Below are positions 4,107 through 57,174 of a DNA stretch of 64,000 nucleotides, piece by piece (position 1 is the first letter of the stretch; every line of letters begins with the position of its first letter). The notes beneath the pieces are model-generated. The model was not told where the DNA came from and ran no database searches. It saw nothing but the letters and a program-made list of their open reading frames with translations. Made by a program: the position numbers and the translations under genes. Origin of the DNA: Myxococcales bacterium (GTDB lineage Bacteria > Lernaellota > Lernaellaia > Lernaellales > Lernaellaceae); contig JAAYVF010000100.1 of the NCBI GenBank assembly GCA_012517325.1, positions 1 to 64,000 of the forward strand, given 5' to 3'.

Positions 4107-6227
4107 ATGCGACCAGTGACTGTTTTCCTCGGCCTCGTGATTGGATTCCTGGCGATCGCCCTCGCGGTTCCGGCGGCGGCGAGCTACAAAGTCGGCCTGA
4201 CGCACGGCACGAACAAACACCGGCCGGAATTCGACTTTGACGCCCTGACGACTTACCACATTTACGCCGCGCAAAACGAATGGGAACCTTTTCAGGTACT
4301 CATCCGCAACGATGCGGCGGTGACGAACATCGATGTGGTGGTCGACGAATTCACTGGACCCGGCGCGGCGATCACCCAGATCGAGCCCTACCGCGTCGCC
4401 TACGTGCCGGTGACGATCGACACCATCAGCCAGAATCCGCCCGACCCGTCCAACGTCGGCATGTGGCCCGACGGCCTGGTGCCGTTCGTCGATCACTTCG
4501 TCGGCGAAACCCGCGACGGCGCGCCGTTCGACCTCGAGGCGGATTTCGCGCAGGCGGTGTTCGTCGACGTTTTCATCCCGGCCGATCAGACGCCCGGCGA
4601 CTACACCGCGACGGTCACCGTGACCGCCGACGGCCATGCCGACTGGACCGGCACCGTCACCTTGACGGTGTGGGATTTCGCCATCCCGACGGGCCTGTCG
4701 CTGGCCAGCATCTATCAATTCGGCGAAAACGCCGCCTACGAATTTCACCAGGCGCACGGCGGCGTGACGGATTTCGACACGCTGTGGTTGCGCTACATGC
4801 AGGAATTCGCCCGCCATCGCATTTCGATCAGCGATTCCTTTTCCAATCCGGGTTACGTCTGGAATTACGATACGTCCACCTTCGATTGGGACTGGTCCGC
4901 GTTCGACGCCAAATTCGGCCCGCTGTGGGACGGCACGTTCTATCGGCCCGGGTTCCAATTCACTTCCCTTCGCCTGCCCTATCCTCCCGGCGGCCGGCCC
5001 GGTGACGTGGCCGAGGAAGACTGGGAACGCGAATGGTGGGCCGGTTGGGCCGATCATTTCCGCGATCATGGCTGGACCGACATTCTCTTCCTGTACCTGC
5101 CCGACGAGCCGGACCCCAGCGAATATCCGGAACTGGCCGACTTGGCCGACAGGCTGCACAACGCCGATCCCGACTTGCGCGCAATGGTGACCGAGCAGAT
5201 CAACGACGTGCTCACCGATCACGTGGACATCTGGACGCCGGACGAGCCGCTCTTTTCCGATTCCCTGCCGTGGCCGCCCTATCCCGAGGCCTACGACGAA
5301 CGGCGCGCCGCCGGCGACACCACGTGGTGGTACAACTGCGTCAGCGCTTCGATGGGCATGGATTACGCCACGCACTTCGTCGATTACGAATCCACCCACA
5401 TGCGCATCTGGACCTGGCTGACCCGCCGCTACGGCTTCACCGGGATCCTCTTCTGGCACACCAATTGGTTGCTACCCGAGATCGATCCCTGGGTTTCGAT
5501 GTGGGCCGCGCAATTCTTCGTTCAAGGCGACGGCACGATCATCTACCCGGGAACGATCGACCACATTGGCGGCGAAACCGATATCCCGGTCGCCAGTCTG
5601 CGCATGAAATACCTGCGCGAGGCCATGGAAGATTACGAGTACTTCCATCTCCTCGATCAGCGCGGCGATGCCGAGTGGATGTCCGCGGTCGCCCGCACCG
5701 CGGCGCCGAAAACCTACCACTGGGAGAAGGATTGGAGCGTGCTGCTGGATTGGCGGCGTAAGGTCGCGGAAAAAATCCTCGGCGTGCTCGATGAGGATGC
5801 CCCGAATCCGCCCTCCGACCTGCAAGCCACGGCACAGGTCGAGGCGATCGCCGTCACCTGGACCAAGCCCGCCGCGGCCGACCTGGCCGGCTTCGAAATC
5901 TGGTACGGCCTGCATGAGAACGATTCCTTCTTCGGCGGCACCCTGGATGCCACGGCGACCGGCGCCGTCGTCAACGGCCTGCTGCCCGGCCGCGAATACC
6001 GCGTCTGGGCCAAGGCGTTCGACACCAACGGCAACCGGTCGGCGACCAGCGACGTGGTCACCGCCGTGCCGCTGGCCGACGAGGAAAGCGACGACGACAA
6101 CGACGACGACGCCAAGGGCGACGACGACGATAACGGTTCGACCGACCGCAACGGCGTTTCGGCCGATCCGCTCCCGGAGAACTCCGCCGATGACGACGCG
6201 GCTGCCGGCTGCGGCGGGTGGAGGTAA
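4107..6227 (+). CDS. secreted DUF4091-type glycosidase-like protein with FN3 domain and C-terminal Asp tract
   Basis: The 706-residue protein has a signal peptide (cleavage near residue 25, after VPAAA). A beta-rich N-terminal domain is followed by a TIM-barrel-like region with a LPDEP motif near 331. The segment REAMEDYEYFHLL near 504 is typical of DUF4091, a family related to GH123 N-acetylgalactosaminidases. A fibronectin type III domain (about 565-655) and an Asp/Asn-rich tract (about 657-690) follow. The protein ends AAAGCGGWR. No cysteine follows the signal peptide as in a lipoprotein, so the tail with its single cysteine may be the anchoring signal. GGAGG stands eight bases before the ATG. 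It is the first gene of a three-gene operon, with 3 bp to the next gene. Glycan hydrolysis is inferred from the fold. Confidence 0.78.
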   Translation: MRPVTVFLGLVIGFLAIALAVPAAASYKVGLTHGTNKHRPEFDFDALTTYHIYAAQNEWEPFQVLIRNDAAVTNIDVVVDEFTGPGAAITQIEPYRVAYVPVTIDTISQNPPDPSNVGMWPDGLVPFVDHFVGETRDGAPFDLEADFAQAVFVDVFIPADQTPGDYTATVTVTADGHADWTGTVTLTVWDFAIPTGLSLASIYQFGENAAYEFHQAHGGVTDFDTLWLRYMQEFARHRISISDSFSNPGYVWNYDTSTFDWDWSAFDAKFGPLWDGTFYRPGFQFTSLRLPYPPGGRPGDVAEEDWEREWWAGWADHFRDHGWTDILFLYLPDEPDPSEYPELADLADRLHNADPDLRAMVTEQINDVLTDHVDIWTPDEPLFSDSLPWPPYPEAYDERRAAGDTTWWYNCVSASMGMDYATHFVDYESTHMRIWTWLTRRYGFTGILFWHTNWLLPEIDPWVSMWAAQFFVQGDGTIIYPGTIDHIGGETDIPVASLRMKYLREAMEDYEYFHLLDQRGDAEWMSAVARTAAPKTYHWEKDWSVLLDWRRKVAEKILGVLDEDAPNPPSDLQATAQVEAIAVTWTKPAAADLAGFEIWYGLHENDSFFGGTLDATATGAVVNGLLPGREYRVWAKAFDTNGNRSATSDVVTAVPLADEESDDDNDDDAKGDDDDNGSTDRNGVSADPLPENSADDDAAAGCGGWR

Positions 6228-6230
6228 GCC

Positions 6231-7589
6231 ATGAACCACAATAAATCCTGGTTTCTGCTGTGCCTGCTCGGCTCGCTGCTCGCCCTGTGCCTGCTGCCCG
6301 GTTGCGATTGCGGCGACGATGACGACAACGACGACAACCAACCCGGCGATGACGACGACGCCTCGCCCGCCGACGACGACAACGACGACGCCTCGCCGGA
6401 CGATGACGACGACGATGACGATGACGACGATAACGACGATAACGACGACGATGTGGTTTGCGACTACGCGAGCTACGATCCGTTGATCGACGAGGGCAAC
6501 GCGCTCCTGAGCGCCGGCGACAACGAAGCGGCCTACGGCGCCTACCACGAGGCCCTGGATTTGTGCCCCGACGAACCCGACGCCAAAATGGGGCTGCTGA
6601 TTTCCGACACCCAATGGTATCTGCAATTCATTTACCGGCTGATCGACTACATCATCAATTTCCCGGTGGCGGCCGACAAAGCCGACCCGAAAAGCATCGC
6701 TTCCATCTTTCAGGAACTGATCCGCGAACAGATGCTGCCGGTCACCGGCGAGATGATCGCCCTGGCCGACGATCTGCGCGCAAATCATCCGAAAGCGCGG
6801 TTCTTCATCGATCCGCTGCCGATGCTGCTGGTGGACGGCCACGCCGTGCTCGAAATGGCCGGCGAGTGGGATCTGGCCGATTTCGACAACGTCAAGGCCT
6901 TCGCGCAGATTCTGGAAGGCTTGTGGTACTTCCTGATCACCTACGATCTGCGCTTCGACCTGACGATCCTTTTCAACGCCGAACCGCCGGCCAGCCCGAC
7001 GACCGAGGAACTCATCCACTTTTATGCCGGCCTGTTGCTGGAGATTCTCGACGATCCGAACTACCCCGACTTTTTGACCTTCCTGGACGACGGCGCGGCG
7101 AATCTGGAAACCTCGGCGTTGCAGGCCGGCCGCGGCTTGATCGGCGTAGTGACGGCCTTCTACAGCATGCGCGAGGAAACCGACCCGCAGGAAGACGACA
7201 TCGCCGGGTACGTCGATGAAAACGGCAACGACCAATGGGACGAGGGCGAACCGTTCAAGGTGCCCTATTTCGGCGATCTGTGGCCGGAAGGCAACGTTTT
7301 CTTCGAGGATCTTTTCTACCTGATGAACGACCTGGGCGAGGCGTTTCTCGACACCGGCCCCGAGGACGTGCATCCCGCCAAACCCGATTGGTTCATGCTG
7401 AGCGACGTCAACTTCATTCTCGAATTCTTCGACGTGTTCGTGCCGGGCATCGCGCTGCCGGATATCTCCCTGCCGATCGGCCGCTTCTTCTATTCGCCGC
7501 CGGACGACGGCCTGCGCGGCGTCGTCCAAACCGTCGCGCAACTGCTCTACGATCTCACCGCGCCCGACGAAACGGAGGTGCTACCATGA
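6231..7589 (+). CDS. lipoprotein with long Asp/Asn tract and TPR-like helical domain
   Basis: The product has 452 residues. A lipobox (LLPGC, Cys at 25) is followed at once by about 50 residues that are almost all Asp and Asn with a few Ser, Pro and Ala. The globular part opens with YDPLIDEGNALLSAGDNEAAYGAYHEA, which reads as a tetratricopeptide hairpin. The rest looks helical with no known motif; a stretch DENGNDQWDEGEPF resembles an EF-hand-like calcium loop. It sits 3 bp after the DUF4091 gene and overlaps the next gene by 4 bp (ATGA), so the three are probably made together. Function unknown; a surface role is inferred from the anchor. Confidence 0.75.
   Translation: MNHNKSWFLLCLLGSLLALCLLPGCDCGDDDDNDDNQPGDDDDASPADDDNDDASPDDDDDDDDDDDNDDNDDDVVCDYASYDPLIDEGNALLSAGDNEAAYGAYHEALDLCPDEPDAKMGLLISDTQWYLQFIYRLIDYIINFPVAADKADPKSIASIFQELIREQMLPVTGEMIALADDLRANHPKARFFIDPLPMLLVDGHAVLEMAGEWDLADFDNVKAFAQILEGLWYFLITYDLRFDLTILFNAEPPASPTTEELIHFYAGLLLEILDDPNYPDFLTFLDDGAANLETSALQAGRGLIGVVTAFYSMREETDPQEDDIAGYVDENGNDQWDEGEPFKVPYFGDLWPEGNVFFEDLFYLMNDLGEAFLDTGPEDVHPAKPDWFMLSDVNFILEFFDVFVPGIALPDISLPIGRFFYSPPDDGLRGVVQTVAQLLYDLTAPDETEVLP
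6313..6454 (+). repeat. GAY-trinucleotide low-complexity tract encoding poly-Asp/Asn
   Basis: The reading frame is a near-continuous run of GAC, GAT and AAC codons. Synonymous codons are mixed, so the tract is not a simple slipped-strand microsatellite. This suggests selection on the acidic peptide as well as possible length variation. Comparable tracts occur at about 6081-6147, 10727-10806, 13645-13671, 46588-46692, 61656-61760 and 62985-63090. Confidence 0.75.
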
Positions 7590-9108: not shown

Positions 9109-10884
9109 TCAATGCAAAACCCGTAGCGAATACCGGGCCCAAAATTCGTGTCGCATCTGTTGCCGCAGCAGCCGCAGCCGCGGCGGCAATTCCAGCCGCG
9201 GCGACGCCGCACCCTTCCCCGTGGGGTTTTCCCAATAGTCGGGCGTGCCGAAGTAATACGGCGCCCACGTCGCGCCCTCGAAATCGGGCGGCAACGCCTG
9301 CGCGACGCAGGACTGATCCAACGCCGCCTCGGGGTCGCGCAGGAAATCGACGAACAGCCGGTCGCCGCAGTGCTCGGCGTCCTCGGCCGTCGACAGCGGC
9401 GTGCCGCCCGAGACGTTGTGCGCGGCGTATTCGAATTCCACGAAGGTCTGGTGCGGCGCCTGGTAATGGTCGCGCAAGGCCACCGCGAAATCGTAAGGCG
9501 TCGCCGGGTCGAGCTTGCCCTGCATGATCAGCATCGGCACGTCGGTCTGCGGCCAGGTGTCGTCGTACGAATCGTGGTAGCGCGGCCATTTGAGGTAGAT
9601 GTCGTTGCGGTCGTACCCCTTGCCGTAACCCATCAGGGTGTTTTCGTAGACGCCGTCCAGGTAGGCGACCAGATCGTCGTTCGTCGGAAAGGTCGGGTAT
9701 TCCCACAATTCCGAAAACGTCTCGTGGAAGAACAACACGTCCGAAAAATAAAGCTGATCGGGGGTGTAGTCGTCGGTGCCGTCGGCGCCCGCCGCCCCTT
9801 TGCCGCCGCCGAAGACCGCGTAATACAGATTGACCAGCGCTTCTTTGTCGCCGTCGTCGCAGCGGTTCAGCCGGTAGACCAGCGCCGGCACCATGTCGTG
9901 GAGCGGCCAGTAATAAACCATCTGATCGATGAGGTACTTGGTGATTTCGGAGGTGAAGCCCGTCTCGGAGCAGAGGTTTTCCTCGTCCTGGCGGCGGAAG
10001 ACGTCGCGCAAGGTGGCTTCCGGGTCGGGCAGCTTGGCGGCGCAGAACGCATCGTCGGCGCACAACTGCAAGATTCCCTTCGTCGCTTTGTCGGCGTACT
10101 CATCCTGAAAAACCATGCTGAAGACCGGCGGCACGTTGCCTTCGAACACCATGCCGTCCGCCTGATCCGGGAAGAACTGCAGATAGCGCTGGCCCCAGAA
10201 CGTCCCTCCCGAGCCGCCCCAGATGACCACGTGCTTGCCGGTTTCCTTCGTGTGGTCGATGAGGGCGGCCAGGTCGATCGCCGAATTGGTGGCGTTGAAG
10301 GTCGCCAGATCGTCGCCGTAGTGGTCTTGCAGGTAGGCGATGCACAGGTTCATTTCCGGGTCGCCGATGTATTCGCCCATGAAGCTGTCGGGATCTTCCC
10401 ATTCGGGACAACCCAGGTATTCGCTGTAACCGGTGCCGCGCGGGTCGAGCGTGTAGACATCCAGTTCCGGATAGAACGCCTGCATCTGTTCCATAAAGGA
10501 AGGAAATCCGATGGTGCCCGAGGCTCCGGGACCGCCGTGCAGGAGCCACAATTGCGCTTCGGCGGGCTGATGGGAGGAAAGCAACCGCTTGACCGCGACC
10601 GTGAATTTGCGTTCGCCGGGATCGAACCAGTCGAACGGCATCTCGACCCGCGCGCACTCGGCTCGATTGTCGCCGTATCCTTCATATAAAGAGCAGGTTT
10701 CCCAGTTCACCGTGATCTCGTCGAACGGAAAACCGTCATCGTCGTCCGCTTCGTCGTCGTCGGCATCGTCATCGCCTTGGTTGTCGTTATCGTCATCGTC
10801 CGACGAATCATCGCAACCGCCGAGACACAAAGCGCCGCAGCCCGCCAGCAGCAAAAACCAGAACCAACAACGCGGCAGATGCAT
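9109..10884 (-). CDS. secreted alpha/beta hydrolase lipoprotein, TAP/proline iminopeptidase-like
   Basis: This 591-residue protein has a lipobox (CLGGC, Cys near 24) and then an Asp/Asn-rich tract to about residue 50. The oxyanion motif HGGPG, a nucleophile elbow GGSGG with Ser225, an acid loop in MQGKLDP and a late His (AHNVSGG) give a full catalytic triad. The LIMQGKLDPATPYDFA segment is the TAP C-terminal signature, so the likely activity is release of N-terminal amino acids or a related esterase. The start is secure: AGGAGG stands five bases before the ATG. It is transcribed alone from the promoter at 10960-10988, divergently from 11092-12477. Confidence 0.85.
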   Translation of the reverse strand: MHLPRCWFWFLLLAGCGALCLGGCDDSSDDDDNDNQGDDDADDDEADDDDGFPFDEITVNWETCSLYEGYGDNRAECARVEMPFDWFDPGERKFTVAVKRLLSSHQPAEAQLWLLHGGPGASGTIGFPSFMEQMQAFYPELDVYTLDPRGTGYSEYLGCPEWEDPDSFMGEYIGDPEMNLCIAYLQDHYGDDLATFNATNSAIDLAALIDHTKETGKHVVIWGGSGGTFWGQRYLQFFPDQADGMVFEGNVPPVFSMVFQDEYADKATKGILQLCADDAFCAAKLPDPEATLRDVFRRQDEENLCSETGFTSEITKYLIDQMVYYWPLHDMVPALVYRLNRCDDGDKEALVNLYYAVFGGGKGAAGADGTDDYTPDQLYFSDVLFFHETFSELWEYPTFPTNDDLVAYLDGVYENTLMGYGKGYDRNDIYLKWPRYHDSYDDTWPQTDVPMLIMQGKLDPATPYDFAVALRDHYQAPHQTFVEFEYAAHNVSGGTPLSTAEDAEHCGDRLFVDFLRDPEAALDQSCVAQALPPDFEGATWAPYYFGTPDYWENPTGKGAASPRLELPPRLRLLRQQMRHEFWARYSLRVLH

Positions 10885-10933
10885 GGAATCCTCCTTTTAC
10901 CTGCTTGCCCGTGACGATTCTTCCAGCGGGGCC

Positions 10934-37545: not shown

Positions 37546-37551
37546 TATAAT
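37546..37551 (+). promoter_or_regulatory. candidate -10 box (TATAAT)
   Basis: A perfect TATAAT lies 57 bases before the heparinase-like gene start, but the -35 region at the proper distance (TAGGCG) is weak. An activator may be needed. Confidence 0.35.
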
Positions 37552-37607
37552 GGCCGCCCGGTGTGCGGAGAACGGAGAGCGTGGTACTGTCGCGTACGGA
37601 TGATTCG

Positions 37608-39989
37608 ATGAAAAAAAATTGGTTGCCCCTGATTCTCGCCTGCCTCCTTCTTTTTTCGGCCTTTGCTTGCGCCGAGCCCGATTCCGATGATTCATCCGCC
37701 GCTGATTCGACGCCCGCCGACGATGATGATGACGACGATAACAATAATGACGACAATGACGACAACGATAACGACGACGATAACGATACATTCGCTGATG
37801 ACGACGATGATGACGACGACAACGATGATGATAATGACAACGACGATGATAATGATAACGACACTACGCCTGACCCACTGGGTGACAACGATCAGGACGG
37901 CATCACCAACGGCCAGGAAGTGTTGGACGGCACCGATCCGGAGGATCCCGGAGACGCCCTGATGTGGCACCCGGAAATCTCCGCCTACCCGCGCCTGCTG
38001 ACCGACGCCGCCGGCTGGTTGCAGGTCGAGCAGAAAATCGAGACCGCCGATCCCGACGCCGTGCGCTTGTTCGCCCGCGTTCAGGCGCAGGCCGACCAAC
38101 CGGAACAGCCGCAGACGCCGGGCGAATTCCATTTCGGGCTGGTGGACACCAACGCTCGGATCGCGGCCAACGCCGCGCTGGCGGCGGTGGTGCTGGACAA
38201 CGACGACTATGCGCAAAAGGCCGCGACGATTCTGGCCACCGACATCTACTTTAATTACGACGAATTGCTGCCGTCCGAGTGGGATTACGGGACGATCCTC
38301 GGCGGTCAGGCGCTGACGACGTCCTGCGTCGCGTTCGACCTGTTGATGGGCTTTTCATTCATCAACGAGGCGCAGGCCGACGAAATCCGCGTTGCGCTAT
38401 TGCTCTTCGCCCAACGGCTGTACGACCTGTACATCACCCTGCCGATCGGCCTGGGCCTGCAGAACAACCACCTGATCAAGCTGACCAGCGGCCTGGGCAT
38501 GCTGGGTCTGACCTTCAACCGCGAGCGCGTCGCCGCCAAATACGTCAATCTGGCGCTCGCCACCGCGCCTTACCTGCTGCTCGATTTCCAGATGCCCGCC
38601 GGCGGCGGCCAGGCCGAGGGGCCCAACTACCTCGATTACACCTTCCAGACTTTTCTATATTTCGCGACCGCCTACCATCGTTACGCGCAGGGGCGCGACC
38701 TGCCCTATAAAAACGTCTGCCGCATCCGATTGTGGCCGCCCTGCCGTCCGGACGTCGTGCCGGTTCCCGATCCGGTCACCGATCCGCGCTTAACCCTGCT
38801 GCTCGATTGGCGGTTCGGCCTGGTGATGCCCGACGGCGGCCGGCCGCCGCTCGACGACAGCAATCTGGGCTGCGGCGATTACGGGGTGCTGGCCGCGCTC
38901 TTCGAGCGGGCGGATTACGCCTGGCTGTACCGCTCCAGTCCGCTCTGCGCGGAAAACACGTACGACAAGGCGATCCTGGAACTGCCGTTGCTCGACGGCC
39001 TGCCCGAACCGGAAGAGCCGACGATCGGCCCCAGCCTGTTTCTGCCGGACGGCGGTCAGGCGGTGTTGCGCAGCGGTTGGGACCCGGAGGCGCTGTACGG
39101 ATTGCTCAACGGCGAGCACGGCAAGGCGCGCCTCGACGGCCTCGGCCACGAACAGCCCGACAACACCAGTTTCATGCTTTATGCGCGCGGCGAATTCTTC
39201 GCCGTCGATTCCGGCTACGGCCATTACGACGAACGGCTGCGCGTCGCCGGGCCCGAGCACCACAACCTGATCCTGGTGGACGGTGAAGGCCCGCCGTTCG
39301 GACTGTACTACCTGTTCGTGGACGTGGAAGCGTCCCTCTCGGAATTCACCGACGCGGCGCGGTTTCACGCGGCGCGCGTCCGGGCGACCTATCGCGGGGT
39401 CGATTTCGACCGTCGCCTGCTGTTAATCGACGACGATTATTTCGTGACCGCCGATCGGGTGCAGGCGCCGGAAGCGCACGAATACACCTGGCTCCTGCAC
39501 ACCAAGGCCGGCGGCACGACCAACGGCGTGTTCACCTTGCTGCCGGACGGCGCGTTGCTGGAGCGGCCCAATGCCGCGATGCGCGTCAAATTGGCGGCGC
39601 AGCCGGAGGGAATGACGCTGACGGCCGTTGACGCCGAGCATGCCTTCGATCAATCCGGCCTGCTAACGCACGCGCGATTGACGGCCACCCTGACCGCCAC
39701 GGACGCGCGTTTCCTCGGCGTTTATCCGGTCGCTCCGGCGGCCGCCGGTTTGCCGGCGGTCGAGCCGATATCGGCCGGCGACCGGCTGGTCTTCCTGGTC
39801 GAGGCCGACGATTACCGCGACGTGGTGATTTTCGGGCCCGGCGGCGATTTCACTTTTGTGCCGCCCGACGGAATGGGCGAAATCGAAACGGACGCTGTGT
39901 TTGTCTGGCTGCGCACCGATCCCGCGAACTTCGCCTTGATCGATTCGGCCTACCTGGAAGGTTTGTATCTGAACTACACGGCCCCGTAG
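37608..39989 (+). CDS. lipoprotein with Asp/Asn tract and heparinase II/III-like domain
   Basis: The 793-residue product has a lipobox ending AFAC (Cys near 23). About 60 Asp/Asn residues follow, then a short calcium-type DNDQDGITNGQE repeat (about 88-100). An alpha-helical toroid (about 115-430) and a beta-sandwich (about 475-790) give the heparinase II/III or alginate-lyase layout. The latter carries LNGEHGKARLDGLGHEQPDNTSF with the conserved His and later PEHHNLILVDG. It likely cleaves acidic polysaccharides at the cell surface. The start at 37608 is chosen for the signal peptide; an upstream GTG at 37563 has none. Confidence 0.83.
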   Translation: MKKNWLPLILACLLLFSAFACAEPDSDDSSAADSTPADDDDDDDNNNDDNDDNDNDDDNDTFADDDDDDDDNDDDNDNDDDNDNDTTPDPLGDNDQDGITNGQEVLDGTDPEDPGDALMWHPEISAYPRLLTDAAGWLQVEQKIETADPDAVRLFARVQAQADQPEQPQTPGEFHFGLVDTNARIAANAALAAVVLDNDDYAQKAATILATDIYFNYDELLPSEWDYGTILGGQALTTSCVAFDLLMGFSFINEAQADEIRVALLLFAQRLYDLYITLPIGLGLQNNHLIKLTSGLGMLGLTFNRERVAAKYVNLALATAPYLLLDFQMPAGGGQAEGPNYLDYTFQTFLYFATAYHRYAQGRDLPYKNVCRIRLWPPCRPDVVPVPDPVTDPRLTLLLDWRFGLVMPDGGRPPLDDSNLGCGDYGVLAALFERADYAWLYRSSPLCAENTYDKAILELPLLDGLPEPEEPTIGPSLFLPDGGQAVLRSGWDPEALYGLLNGEHGKARLDGLGHEQPDNTSFMLYARGEFFAVDSGYGHYDERLRVAGPEHHNLILVDGEGPPFGLYYLFVDVEASLSEFTDAARFHAARVRATYRGVDFDRRLLLIDDDYFVTADRVQAPEAHEYTWLLHTKAGGTTNGVFTLLPDGALLERPNAAMRVKLAAQPEGMTLTAVDAEHAFDQSGLLTHARLTATLTATDARFLGVYPVAPAAAGLPAVEPISAGDRLVFLVEADDYRDVVIFGPGGDFTFVPPDGMGEIETDAVFVWLRTDPANFALIDSAYLEGLYLNYTAP
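37715..37866 (+). repeat. GAY-trinucleotide low-complexity tract
   Basis: Codons GAC, GAT, AAC and AAT alternate almost without break over about 150 bases, encoding the Asp/Asn linker of the heparinase-like lipoprotein. It is the longest tract in the window with few other residues. Confidence 0.75.
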
Positions 39990-46558: not shown

Positions 46559-49500
46559 TTATCGGAACAAGGATCCGCACCCCCCGCCGACCAATTGGCC
46601 GTCATCGTCGTCGTCGTTTTGCTCGTCGTCCTGGGCCTGATCGTCATCTGTCGCGCCGGTGTCGTCATCGTCGTCGCCGACGCTGTCGTCGTCCGCGGGC
46701 GTCTCGTCGTCGCCCGCCGGAATGCACACATTGGTCGCCTCGACGCAGATCTCGTCGGCATCGCAGGGATCGCCGTTCGAGAAGCAGGTCCGGGTGTCCT
46801 CGTCGCAGATTTCCTCGCCGTTGCAGAATTGGCCGTCATCGGGACACGGCGCCGTCGTCGCGGCGCATTCCTTCAGGCTTTCGTCGCAATATTCCTCGCC
46901 GTTGCACCAGACCTCGTCGTTGGGACAAGGATCGCCGGTCCGCGAGCAATGGTCGGTATCCTCGCTGCAGATTTCCTGTCCGTTGCAGAAAACTCCGTCG
47001 TCCGTGCAAGGGTCGCCGCTGTGGTAGCAGGTCCGTTGCGACTCGTCGCACCACTCGACGCCGTCGCAATAGAGGTTGTCGTCCGGGCACGGGTCGCCGG
47101 TGTCCAGGCAGCGATTGGCCGTTTCGTCGCAGAACTCCTCGCCGTTGCAGAACAGCCCGTCGTTGGGGCACGGATCGCCGGAATGCCGGCACTGCGCGCC
47201 GCCCTCGTCGCACCATTCGATGCCGGTGCAGAAGAAGCCGTCGTCCCCGCACGGATTGCCGCTGTGGGCGCAGGAATCGTTGATCTCGTTGCAGATCTCC
47301 ACGCCGTTGCAGAACACCTGGTCGTTCGGACAGGGGTTGCCGGCGTGCCGGCAGGTATTGGCATTTTCGTCGCACCATTCGGAGCCGGTGCAGAAGAAAC
47401 CGTCGTCGGGGCACGGATTGCCGGTCGTCTCGCAGGCATGGTCTTGCTCGTTGCAATATTCGACGCCGTTGCAGAATACCTGGTCGTTCGGACACGGGCT
47501 GCCGGAATGGTTGCAGCGATTCAGCAATTCGTTGCAGGATTCGGTGCCGTTGCAGAAGACGCCGTCGTCCGGGCACGCCTCGCCGGTCGTCTCGCAGGAA
47601 TTGCTTTGCTCATCGCAGTACTCGACGCCGTTGCAGAATTGATTGTCGTTCGGACACGGATCGCCGCTGTGTTCGCAGGTGTTCCGCCGCTCGTTGCAGG
47701 ATTCGTTGCCGTTGCAAAAGACGCCGTCGTCCGGGCAGGGATAGCCGGTGGACGCGCAAACGTCGGCGTCCTCGTCGCAATACTCGTTGCCGTCGCAGAA
47801 CTGGTTGTTGTTCGGGCATGGATTGCCGCTGTTCTCGCAGCGATCCTGTCGCTCGTTGCAGGATTCGGACCCGTTGCAGAATTGTCCGTCGTCCGGGCAG
47901 GGATTGCCGCTGGTGTCGCAGGAGCGGCCGTCCTCGTTGCAATACTCGGTGCCGTTGCAATAGAGGTTGTCGTTCGGGCAGGGATTGCCGCTGCTTTCGC
48001 ATTGGTTCAGGCGTTCGTTGCACGATTCGGTGCCGTTGCAATAGATGCCGTCATCGCCGCAGGGATCGCCGGTGCTGTCGCAACGATTGCGGTCCTCGTC
48101 GCAGAATTCCCGTCCGTTGCAGAACAGGTTGTCGTCCCCGCAGGGATTGCCGGAATGATCGCACTGGTTGAGCGACTCGTTGCAGCTTTCGGTGCCGTTG
48201 CAGTAGAGGCCGTCGTCGCCGCAGGGATCGCCCTCGTGCGAAGTGCAGGCGCCTTCCTCGCACACGTCCTTGCCGTTGCAGAAAACGCCGTCGTCGCAGG
48301 TGGCGCCGTCGTTCATCGTCCATTCGGTGTAGGACTCCGAAACGTCGCAGATCTCGCACGGATTGTCGGGGTTCAACGCGCCGTCGGCGTAGCACTGGCC
48401 GTCGATCCGGCAGCCGGCGCTGGGGCAACTGTCGATGGTCAGCGTGAAGCGGCCGTGATCCGACCACCAATAGCCGTCGACGAAAACGTAGAAATTACCG
48501 CCGTTCTCGGCCGTGAAATCGATGTGGGAATGGTCCCGGACGCCGGTGTCGTCGTTGCAGGCGATCTGCGCGTCGTAATCCTCGCAATCGGCGTAGCGCA
48601 CGTAAACCATGGTGTCGTTGAAATCGCCGTGACCCTGCAGGTCGATGTAGTAGGTGAAGTTGGTGCTGCCGACGAAATAGTAGATGTTCTCCGGGCCCAG
48701 ACTAAAACCGCATGAACCGTAATAATCGCCGCCCGGCCAATCCGTCTCGCCGTTGATGACCGCCGGCACCCCGGTGAAAATGGCGCTGTCGCAGTCGTTT
48801 TTCTCCCCGTTCGCCGGCCAGGCCAGCCCGCCCGCCGCCGGCCGCTCGCAATTTTGCGGCGTCGCGGGCCGGATCGCCAGGTAGCCATCGCGCTCGGCAC
48901 TGGAAAGGATCTGGTAGGAAACGGTCAGTGGATAGACGGCCTGCGCGTCATCGACCCCGATCGACAATTCGGCGTCGTCGGCGACGAGAGCCGCCGGCAA
49001 CCGCCGGCCGTTCGCGTCGGTGGCCAGCGGCAATTCGTCGATCACCAGCGGGAAGCCGTCTTGATAGACCGTCACTTGCGAACCGGAAACGACCGGTTCG
49101 GGCCGCGGTTGCCCGTGCAGTTCGATCGTCACCAGCAGCGGATCCCGGCCGTCCGGACGTTCGGTGAGAATCAACCGGTGCTCGAGGCCGCCGGGCCGCA
49201 TTTCGTATTCCTCGGTCAGCCAGCCGCGTTCGTAGCGGACCAGGCAGGAGGAATCGCCGGCGCGGCAATCGTAAACCAGGTTCTGCGGCTCATCCGGCGC
49301 CACGACCAGCCGGCCGCGTGAAAGCCTGGTCAACGCCCAGGCGATCTTGGAAAATTCGCACGAACCGGCGCCGCGCAGGATGATTTCCTCCCACCCGAAT
49401 TGGATCATCCATTGAGAAACGGCGTCGGTGATCGCCAAACCGTCACCGGCCTTTTGGGCGGTCAGCGGCGCCGCGTCGAGCATCGTCGCTCTACCGAGAC

Positions 49501-49597
49501 TCGGCTCGCTTCCGGAAAAGGAAAAGGCGCTGAATAGGGAGAGTGAAGCCAGGAGCAGAAAGGCCACGCACGCGATTTTCTTCCGGTCGTATTTCAT
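46559..49597 (-). CDS. large secreted cysteine-repeat protein with C-terminal Asp tract
   Basis: The 1012-residue product has a signal peptide (about 1-28). A beta-rich N-terminal part is followed by a PPC-like sandwich (about 250-375, with YYFVGSTNFTYYIDLQGHGDFND). Then come nineteen tandem cysteine-rich repeats (about 434-944), mostly 27 residues with four Cys each, and an Asp-rich tract (about 966-1003). The C-terminal end is GGGCGSLFR. It has no lipobox, so the tail may be the anchor, as in 4107-6227. AGGCGG stands six bases before the ATG. Role as an adhesin or stalk is inferred. Confidence 0.78.
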   Translation of the reverse strand: MKYDRKKIACVAFLLLASLSLFSAFSFSGSEPSLGRATMLDAAPLTAQKAGDGLAITDAVSQWMIQFGWEEIILRGAGSCEFSKIAWALTRLSRGRLVVAPDEPQNLVYDCRAGDSSCLVRYERGWLTEEYEMRPGGLEHRLILTERPDGRDPLLVTIELHGQPRPEPVVSGSQVTVYQDGFPLVIDELPLATDANGRRLPAALVADDAELSIGVDDAQAVYPLTVSYQILSSAERDGYLAIRPATPQNCERPAAGGLAWPANGEKNDCDSAIFTGVPAVINGETDWPGGDYYGSCGFSLGPENIYYFVGSTNFTYYIDLQGHGDFNDTMVYVRYADCEDYDAQIACNDDTGVRDHSHIDFTAENGGNFYVFVDGYWWSDHGRFTLTIDSCPSAGCRIDGQCYADGALNPDNPCEICDVSESYTEWTMNDGATCDDGVFCNGKDVCEEGACTSHEGDPCGDDGLYCNGTESCNESLNQCDHSGNPCGDDNLFCNGREFCDEDRNRCDSTGDPCGDDGIYCNGTESCNERLNQCESSGNPCPNDNLYCNGTEYCNEDGRSCDTSGNPCPDDGQFCNGSESCNERQDRCENSGNPCPNNNQFCDGNEYCDEDADVCASTGYPCPDDGVFCNGNESCNERRNTCEHSGDPCPNDNQFCNGVEYCDEQSNSCETTGEACPDDGVFCNGTESCNELLNRCNHSGSPCPNDQVFCNGVEYCNEQDHACETTGNPCPDDGFFCTGSEWCDENANTCRHAGNPCPNDQVFCNGVEICNEINDSCAHSGNPCGDDGFFCTGIEWCDEGGAQCRHSGDPCPNDGLFCNGEEFCDETANRCLDTGDPCPDDNLYCDGVEWCDESQRTCYHSGDPCTDDGVFCNGQEICSEDTDHCSRTGDPCPNDEVWCNGEEYCDESLKECAATTAPCPDDGQFCNGEEICDEDTRTCFSNGDPCDADEICVEATNVCIPAGDDETPADDDSVGDDDDDTGATDDDQAQDDEQNDDDDDGQLVGGGCGSLFR
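46766..48298 (-). repeat. array of 19 cysteine-rich coding repeats (81 bp each)
   Basis: Translating the minus strand gives one 25-residue unit and eighteen 27-residue units, all with four cysteines (consensus CxDDGxFCNGxExCxExxxxCxxSGNP). Units alternate between two types, one starting CPDDG and one CPNDN, so the array is also a 54-residue superrepeat. Total length 511 codons. Divergence between units is substantial, so it is not a recent expansion. Confidence 0.9.
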
Positions 49598-49912
49598 CGC
49601 CAACCGCCTGGAAACCAATGTGGCTTTTATTGTCGTAGCGGGATTCGGCTACCGCGTTTTTCATCGCCATTCAGAATCATCGTGCCGCGCAAAACAAAGT
49701 GGTGGTATGGTATCATCCGCTTCAGGCCAATGCAAATATGATTCGTGTATCCGGTTCAACCAATCCGGCAGCGACGGAAAAATCGACGCAGCGGGCAAAG
49801 GAACTCAATTCGCGCGGGCTTTCCGACGATAAGAAGCAATAATACGATTCAAATTCGTCAGCCGCGGAACGTATTGGAATGAACGGCGGGAAAAAATAAA
49901 ACGGAGTCGTCC
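49598..49912. other. intergenic region between divergent genes
   Basis: This 315-bp stretch contains no gene I can support. AT-rich boxes such as TATGGTATCAT (49705-49715) may hold the promoter of the histidine kinase gene, but no -35 partner is clear. A GGAG lies upstream of ATG 49913. Confidence 0.4.
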
Positions 49913-55510: not shown

Positions 55511-55665
55511 CCGCTGCCCGCCGAAAAACGTGATCGCATAGATCCATCGCTCCTTTTAACCGTGTTTCCCACTGACGGTTTCGGACCGATTTATCGTCTT
55601 GGCCGTTGTTGTTTAACTATGGTAATAGTTGCCCTGGTTTTGAATTATGAGAGGAAAAGTAAGAG

Positions 55666-57174
55666 ATGAAAAGCGCCTGGACGATTCTCACCCTGATGAT
55701 CATTCTCTTGCTGCCGGCCCTGCTCGCTTCCTGCGCCGGCGACGACGATGACGATAACCCCGGATCGAATCCGGGGCAGACTCAAGACGACGACAACGAC
55801 GGTGCTGACGATGATGATGACGACGACAACAACAATGACGACGACAATAACGACAACGACACCTCGCCCGCCGAAATCTGGGATGCGCTTACGCCGCAGG
55901 GATTGCCGGTCGATCAGGTGATGGGCACCTCGACGCAGATGTACGACGGGCCCGACGACAACTGGTACCGCGATTTCGAGATCCCCAAGCTGGTCGAAGC
56001 CGGGCTGTTTCGCTTGCGCGCGTCGATCGACTGGCCCGACGTCGAACCCGAACAGGATCAGTTCACCTTCGCCTACAGCGATCCGTTCGTGCAACTGGTG
56101 ATCGACGCCGGCCTGCGGTTCGACGGCCGCCTTTGCTACGGCGTCGATTGGGCGGCGCCGGACGACAACGACTCGGCCATCCCGCCCGCCGACTTCGGCG
56201 ACTACGCCGGGCACGTCGCCGAACACTATTGCGGGGTCATCGACTCCTGGGAAATCTGGAACGAGGAAAACGTCAAGGTATTCTGGCAGCCCGAGCCGGA
56301 CCCGCAGGTTTTCGGCGACATCATGAAAGCGGTGTTCATCGCCGTGCACGACGCCTGTCCGGACGCGAAAGTCGTCTTCGGCGGCCTGACGCCCTTCGAG
56401 GGCAATTCGCTCGTTGGCCAGGGGCTTTACCGGTTCCTCGACGAGGTCCGCGCCGTGCATCCCGACATCGGCGATTACTTCGACGTCATGGCCATTCACC
56501 CCTACACGCTGGGACAGACGCCGACGCCGGAATACGCACTGTTGTTCGGCGACTACGAATTTTGGCCCAGCCTGCCCGGCCAGGTTCGCACCGCCCGGCA
56601 GCGCCTCGCCGACATGGGCGTGCCCGACAAACCGATCTGGGCCACCGAATACGGCTGGCCGTCGCTGCTCATCGGCGAGCAGGCGCAGGCCGACTTCCTG
56701 GTGCGCGGCGCACTGCTCGGCCTGACCGAGGGCGTCGAGGCCATGGACTGGTACACCTTCTACGATCGCGAACCGGGTAGCAGCACCCTTCCCACTGAGG
56801 ATTATTTCGGTCTTTACTCCTGGCCCGACGCCGAGGGCGGCCCGCAGCAAAAGCCCGTCTACCGCGCGGCGCGCGGCCTGTACCGGGTTCTTGGCGACGC
56901 GCGCTACGCCGGCGATCTGTCCGCCGCGCTCAGTTTGCCGGACAGCGTTTACGGCCTGGGATTCGTGAACGAACAAACCGGTCAAATCTACCTGGCCGCA
57001 TGGGACGGCCGGTATAAAAAAACCACTTCCTTGACGTTACCCTGCCCGGCGGCGACGCAAAGCTACGAAGTGCTGGACGAGGAAGGCGAAAGCGTCGCGC
57101 AAGGCGGCGCCGTCGAATCGCTGACCCTGGAACTGACGGGGCAAGTAACCTACGTCCGTTTCGACTTGGAATAG
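55666..57174 (+). CDS. lipoprotein with Asp/Asn tract and clan GH-A glycosidase domain
   Basis: The 502-residue product has a lipobox LASC (Cys near 22) and then about 45 Asp/Asn-rich residues. The barrel begins near 80 with QVMGTSTQMY. WEIWNEEN places the acid/base at Glu200, and IWATEYGW places the nucleophile at Glu328. A small beta domain closes the protein. The layout fits GH39, GH5 or similar families; the substrate is unknown. Like the heparinase-like protein, it is likely a surface polysaccharide hydrolase. GAGAGGAAAA precedes the ATG. Confidence 0.82.
   Translation: MKSAWTILTLMIILLLPALLASCAGDDDDDNPGSNPGQTQDDDNDGADDDDDDDNNNDDDNNDNDTSPAEIWDALTPQGLPVDQVMGTSTQMYDGPDDNWYRDFEIPKLVEAGLFRLRASIDWPDVEPEQDQFTFAYSDPFVQLVIDAGLRFDGRLCYGVDWAAPDDNDSAIPPADFGDYAGHVAEHYCGVIDSWEIWNEENVKVFWQPEPDPQVFGDIMKAVFIAVHDACPDAKVVFGGLTPFEGNSLVGQGLYRFLDEVRAVHPDIGDYFDVMAIHPYTLGQTPTPEYALLFGDYEFWPSLPGQVRTARQRLADMGVPDKPIWATEYGWPSLLIGEQAQADFLVRGALLGLTEGVEAMDWYTFYDREPGSSTLPTEDYFGLYSWPDAEGGPQQKPVYRAARGLYRVLGDARYAGDLSAALSLPDSVYGLGFVNEQTGQIYLAAWDGRYKKTTSLTLPCPAATQSYEVLDEEGESVAQGGAVESLTLELTGQVTYVRFDLE
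55740..55863 (+). repeat. GAY-trinucleotide low-complexity tract
   Basis: GAC, GAT and AAC codons dominate this stretch, encoding the acidic linker of the GH-A-like lipoprotein, with a short Gly/Ser/Pro/Gln break in the middle. Confidence 0.72.

Follow-up and report, generated by a model that had tools for sequence, protein, structure and literature searches.

A helix-free C-terminal Gly-Cys tail on predicted exported proteins of one bacterial phylum, and its likeness to MYXO-CTERM signals

GlyGly-CTERM (rhombosortase), PEP-CTERM (exosortase) and LPXTG (sortase) are, like the tail described here, C-terminal sorting tags of exported proteins, but each of the three is a tripartite signal that includes a helix and a basic end, and a bare Cys terminus occurs in none of them. 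To our knowledge, a transmembrane helix and a basic end are common to the prokaryotic C-terminal sorting tags known so far. Nothing relevant on a Cys tag lacking a transmembrane segment, or on poly-Asp C-terminal sorting, was found in the open-licence literature. MYXO-CTERM (TIGR03901) consists of a Cys motif, in its generic form GCGC, then a helix and an Arg cluster, and the CPBP protease MrtX cuts it (PMC11980579). Lipidation of its Cys by an Lgt-like enzyme has been proposed but is unproven (PMC11980579). MYXO-CTERM proteins use type II secretion, and TraA without its MYXO-CTERM is still secreted by this system (PMC11980579).

The window, which is the whole stretch of 64,000 nucleotides that was analyzed, encodes two proteins that end in a Gly-Cys motif behind an acidic linker. 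The first is a secreted protein of the GH123 type with an fn3 domain (4107–6227, forward strand, stop TAA), which matched the Pfam models GH123_cat (2.5e-18) and fn3 (1e-8); DUF4091, under which it had been listed, is the old name of the present GH123 catalytic family, PF13320. Its C-terminus reads ...SADDDAAAGCGGWR, with the acidic, disordered linker and the GCGGWR end at 6078–6224 and the Cys codon at 6210–6212. The second is a secreted Cys-repeat protein on the reverse strand (open reading frame 46559–49618, ATG at 49597, stop TAA), whose C-terminus reads ...NDDDDDGQLVGGGCGSLFR, its end being also given as ...DDDDDGQLVGGGCGSLFR; here the acidic linker and the GGGCGSLFR end occupy 46562–46711 and the Cys codon 46577–46579. 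Both proteins begin with a Sec signal peptide that has no lipobox, that of the GH123 protein lying at 4107–4181 (MRPVTVFLGLVIGFLAIALAVPAAA, cleavage site inferred by eye). The positions of the two tails and the missing lipoboxes agree with the sequence-only reading, which had proposed that the two ends are one shared signal.

That reading had also pictured the tail as a mirror image of the lipoproteins in the same window, and the other acid-tract proteins do carry the tract directly behind an N-terminal lipobox-type Cys. They comprise the lipoprotein adjoining the GH123 gene (6231–7589, forward strand), where LLPGC is followed by a D/N tract and the linker is the same, and three open frames for N-terminal lipoproteins, at 9109–10896 (reverse strand, LGGC-DDSSDDDDND), 37551–39989 (forward strand, FSAFAC-AEPDSDD...) and 55663–57174 (forward strand, LLASC-AGDDDDD). 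The arrangement of a GH123 gene followed by an acid-tract N-terminal lipoprotein (4107–7589 in the window) recurs behind the GH123 orthologues of three other genomes of the phylum, G001 (L236), G003 (L239) and G005 (L237), so that these neighbours appear to be anchored at opposite ends.

To count tails, we used seven genomes from seven genera of one phylum, perhaps Candidatus Lernaellota, among them the window's own genome (G000), with the reversed pattern as control. In the own genome, GCGC directly before a stop codon occurred at 66 sites versus 4 for the control, and a pattern in which a short gap separates three Asp codons from a GCG-stop end gave 155 matches versus 2, overlapping duplicates included. 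These counts exclude chance as the source of the tails, and the signal is carried by many proteins beyond the two from which it had been proposed. The dominant tail is (Asp/Asn)n-[S/G/N/E]-GCGC at the very C-terminus, mainly as ...DDD[S/G]GCGC-stop, and the GCGGWR and GCGSLFR ends of the window are minority variants of it. Synonymous codons vary freely (GGN TGY GGN TGY), and the stop can be TGA, TAA or TAG. No hydrophobic segment or Arg cluster was found 3′ of the stops of the own-genome tail frames. The exact end (GCGGWR, GCGSLFR, CCGC, GCS) and the second Cys both vary, suggesting that the recognition motif is loose. Seven of the loci (L077, L121, L079, L106, L107, L114 and L127) have similar sequence past the stop, which may represent terminators or repeats that they have in common.

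A signal peptide without a lipobox was read in 56 of the 67 tail proteins parsed in the own genome. Nine of the other 11 have a start that is truncated, at a contig end or not called, and two were flagged for a lipobox, one of which (L100) looks real when read from the sequence, while that of L081 was probably called falsely, given the AxA site behind it. The tail and an apparent N-terminal lipobox are thus found together in L100 (G000:C76) and also in L324 (G002:C133); the L324 gene lies directly upstream of an Lgt gene of the clade termed C below. From these few proteins, C-terminal anchoring would not always be an alternative to the N-terminal kind. The tail proteins include subtilase, M14 carboxypeptidase, C25 peptidase, PKD, FG-GAP and Kelch proteins, and two match the myxosortase-dependent M36 family. 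The NCBIfam scan turned up no model for the tail, so its bearers are probably annotated as simply secreted. No recurrent enzyme was found beside the tail genes, whose only recurring neighbours are paralogues of tail proteins.

By genus, the GCGC-stop sites numbered 66, 52, 33, 34, 44, 40 and 8, with controls of 1 to 6 (277 versus 20 over the seven genera). When three acidic codons were required as well, six of the seven genomes still matched, with between 7 and 29 sites per genome, and the control count was zero throughout. In 92 genomes of other lineages, which were at the control level, 119 GCGC-stop sites stood against 103 in the control, with a maximum of 9 per genome. When 84,980 species genomes were scanned for D-D-D-x-GCGC-stop, in a collection that may leave out the window's genome and its nearest relatives, 20 stretches matched. 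Eleven of them belong to 'Deltaproteobacteria bacterium FR_14', whose contigs match the phylum member G003; the nine remaining stretches were singletons, none of which ended a secreted protein. On these genome scans, the tail appears restricted to the lineage.

The sequence-only reading would have failed had the Cys not been conserved among orthologues, and it is conserved. Searching with the GH123 core only, the tail removed, we found GH123 orthologues in all seven genera, and the tail Cys was kept in every one. Their ends (GCGGWR, GCGGW in a paralogue, GCGGGR, GACGCGV, PGCGG, AGCGGI, GACACGRA, GGCGC and NGCGC) show that this Cys is constant, whereas there is variation in the second Cys and in the last residues. 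Stop codons or frameshifts interrupt the G003 orthologue (L239/L243, G003:C22), yet leave its GGCGC end intact, which may reflect an assembly error or a pseudogene. For the Cys-repeat protein, the closest relative is in G006 (48.5% identity) and ends in GGGCGSSLR; more distant relatives end in GCCGC, NCCGC, SCCGC, GACGC, GCFG, SCCG or SFCGFV. The fetched loci contain 159 open reading frames whose C-terminus is acidic. Of these, 125 end in GCGC, 28 have some other Cys no more than 10 residues from the end, 3 have a transmembrane tail and 3 have neither Cys nor helix, figures that measure consistency rather than an unbiased rate, since most loci had been fetched by tail or by homology. Judged from these sequences, the tail is a conserved, lineage-specific tag on predicted exported proteins, with one obligatory Cys and no helix, and a shared signal on dozens of proteins, as the two window proteins had suggested.

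The likeness to MYXO-CTERM holds up in the same genomes. A handful of proteins there carry the full MYXO-CTERM form, with an acid tract, a GCGC, GGCS or CGGC core, a helix and an Arg end, and bare tails outnumber them by about ten to one in the own genome. Like MYXO-CTERM, the bare tail is a tag with a Gly-Cys signature on dozens of Sec-exported surface hydrolases and adhesins per genome, it follows a disordered linker, and its bearers have an N-terminal signal peptide (clear in 56 of 67); it also has the invariant Cys in a Gly-Cys motif (constant in the GH123 orthologues, within GCGC in 125 of the 159 frames), the residue proposed to be lipidated in MYXO-CTERM. It lacks the transmembrane helix, the stop coming 0–8 codons past the Cys, and the Arg-rich end, as most tails end in Cys and the window variants in a single Arg. 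The anchors also seem to be interchangeable. In G004, a full MYXO-CTERM protein is 41.5% identical over 472 amino acids to a DSGCGC-ending protein of the own genome, and Cys-repeat domains occur both on bare-tail proteins and on proteins with an N-terminal lipobox and acid tract. With its shared acid tract and GCGC core, and with this interchange of anchors, the bare tail resembles a MYXO-CTERM signal minus the helix. Weak TIGR03901 matches in the own genome (C27 and C111; L003 and L004) were dropped, having no such C-terminal tail.

The proposed system was expected to come with a membrane protease or an acyltransferase, and the two fared differently. MrtX-like genes occur in six of the seven genomes, all below the curated cut-off and weakly in G002. 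The Pfam model detected no CPBP gene in G001, a 99% complete genome with 34 GCGC tails, which suggests that the bare tail can do without this enzyme class, and the genome sequences give no sign of such a requirement. The MrtX-like gene adjoins radical SAM/SPASM and carbamoyltransferase-like genes in G000 (L229, contig C3) and G006 (L230, contig C42).

A transferase candidate was found in the form of an extra Lgt paralogue that co-occurs with the tails. Each of the seven genomes has three Lgt-family (PF01790) genes, collected by phmmer search, which fall into three deep clades; those of the own genome lie at G000:C87:48576-49424, C27:44104-44862 and C7:33151-33879. In sequence, representatives of all three clades match E. 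coli Lgt, the structure of which has been solved. Clade A adjoins ileS-lspA and is canonical, clade B is present in all seven genomes, and clade C in six, the tail-rich genera. G004, which has only 8 GCGC-stop sites, lacks clade C and has a divergent third Lgt instead. No informative gene neighbours were found for clades B and C. Found in all six tail-rich genomes but not in the tail-poor G004, the non-operonic paralogue of clade C is the leading candidate transferase, on a co-occurrence over seven genomes with a single negative.

We lean, on balance, towards reading the tail as a dedicated C-terminal surface-anchoring tag that is modified, probably lipidated, at its Cys, with the clade C Lgt as the leading candidate for the transferase. 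The protein would leave by the Sec route with an ordinary, cleaved signal peptide, and a long, acidic, disordered linker would present the terminal Gly-Cys(-Gly-Cys), whose thiol would be the modification site. The tag would amount to a MYXO-CTERM signal from which the part that myxosortase cuts off, the helix and the Arg end, is missing from the start, and no sorting protease would be needed. The lipid would most likely be added to the Cys after export, and the protein would then stay attached to the outer membrane; the acidic linker would adjoin the lipidated Cys, which is the arrangement of this genome's N-terminal lipoproteins. Lipidation, the enzyme and the final location of the tail proteins are what we infer here. 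A fuller version is offered only tentatively, in which a phylum-specific pathway, with a dedicated, duplicated Lgt-family transferase, lipidates the terminal Cys of fully exported proteins without helix or sorting protease and so yields C-terminally anchored lipoproteins with the same acidic linker. What speaks against the anchoring reading is that, without a helix, there is no obvious means of keeping the tail within reach of an Lgt-type enzyme in the membrane.

Other known systems offer partial parallels. N-terminal lipoproteins, made through a lipobox, Lgt and LspA, likewise have their Cys beside an acidic linker, and extra Lgt paralogues are present here. The bare tail differs in having its Cys at the opposite terminus and a leader of the signal peptidase I type, so that no LspA step is possible; the lipobox is absent from both window proteins and from 56 of 67 tail proteins. 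In Bacteroidetes, acidic residues near the lipidated Cys send lipoproteins to the cell surface (PMC5080379). The acidic residues beside the Cys are common to both, but the Bacteroidetes export signal, K-(D/E)2 or Q-A-(D/E)2, is short, lies at the N-terminus and belongs to another phylum, and a similar role of the tract here would be by analogy. Rab proteins that end in CC or CXC are prenylated without CaaX cleavage (PMC8358657). Such a terminal CXC-like end that needs no trimming parallels the bare tail as set against MYXO-CTERM; the enzyme, Rab geranylgeranyl transferase, is cytosolic and eukaryotic, and the analogy would be one of working principle, with no homology.

The main rival takes the terminal Cys for a thiol that forms a disulfide or another covalent cross-link to a surface polymer or partner protein, with the acidic linker as a flexible spacer or cation-binding brush. 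An exposed, free GCGC or CC(GC) end would be ideally suited to disulfide formation, two or three Cys are present in several tails, and there is no helix to bring the tail to a membrane enzyme. We nevertheless regard this as unlikely, if well short of negligible, since many conserved tails have a single Cys (GCGGWR, PGCGG, GCGGGR, GGCS) and since the exchange of the tail for MYXO-CTERM or lipobox anchors suggests that it, too, anchors proteins to a membrane. It is less probable still that the tail, its Cys unmodified, is a stability tag or a signal for export or surface release, for instance by type II secretion. The strict conservation of a Cys so near the stop would be left unexplained, and the secretion of TraA without its MYXO-CTERM implies that the C-terminal tag is not what export needs there, even though MYXO-CTERM proteins do use that route (PMC11980579) and the tail proteins look like exported hydrolases.

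The bare tails might also be decayed MYXO-CTERM signals that lost the helix to a premature stop and have no function, as the Asp tract and GCGC core shared with the full forms of the same genomes could suggest. Their tenfold excess over those forms in the own genome, their conservation with sharp ends across genera and the lack of any helix or Arg remnant 3′ of the stops make this very improbable. An origin in codon-repeat slippage or composition, without selection, would fit the GAY repeats of the Asp tracts; it is refuted by the near-zero reversed-pattern controls, quite apart from the varying synonymous codons, the placement of the motif exactly at the stop and the Cys kept in orthologues, and retains virtually no probability. 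Readthrough of TGA, which would make the tails full tripartite signals, was considered on the ground that 57 of the 72 frames first parsed end in TGA. The same tail also occurs with TAA or TAG, and no downstream frame encodes a helix and Arg end, so this explanation was rejected, and we give it next to no weight.

The earlier interpretation is thus partly supported, and the tail is best described as a Cys-type C-terminal sorting signal in a variant form that lacks the helix. If the anchoring reading is right, it would be a new way to attach proteins to the bacterial surface by the C-terminus, and, with tens of surface proteins per genome bearing the bare Cys, it would form a simpler class of C-terminal sorting tag. 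It also bears on which enzyme modifies the MYXO-CTERM Cys and on whether lipidation precedes the protease and proceeds without it: a natural system that seems to do without the protease and has a candidate Lgt paralogue would make the MYXO-CTERM Cys question directly testable.
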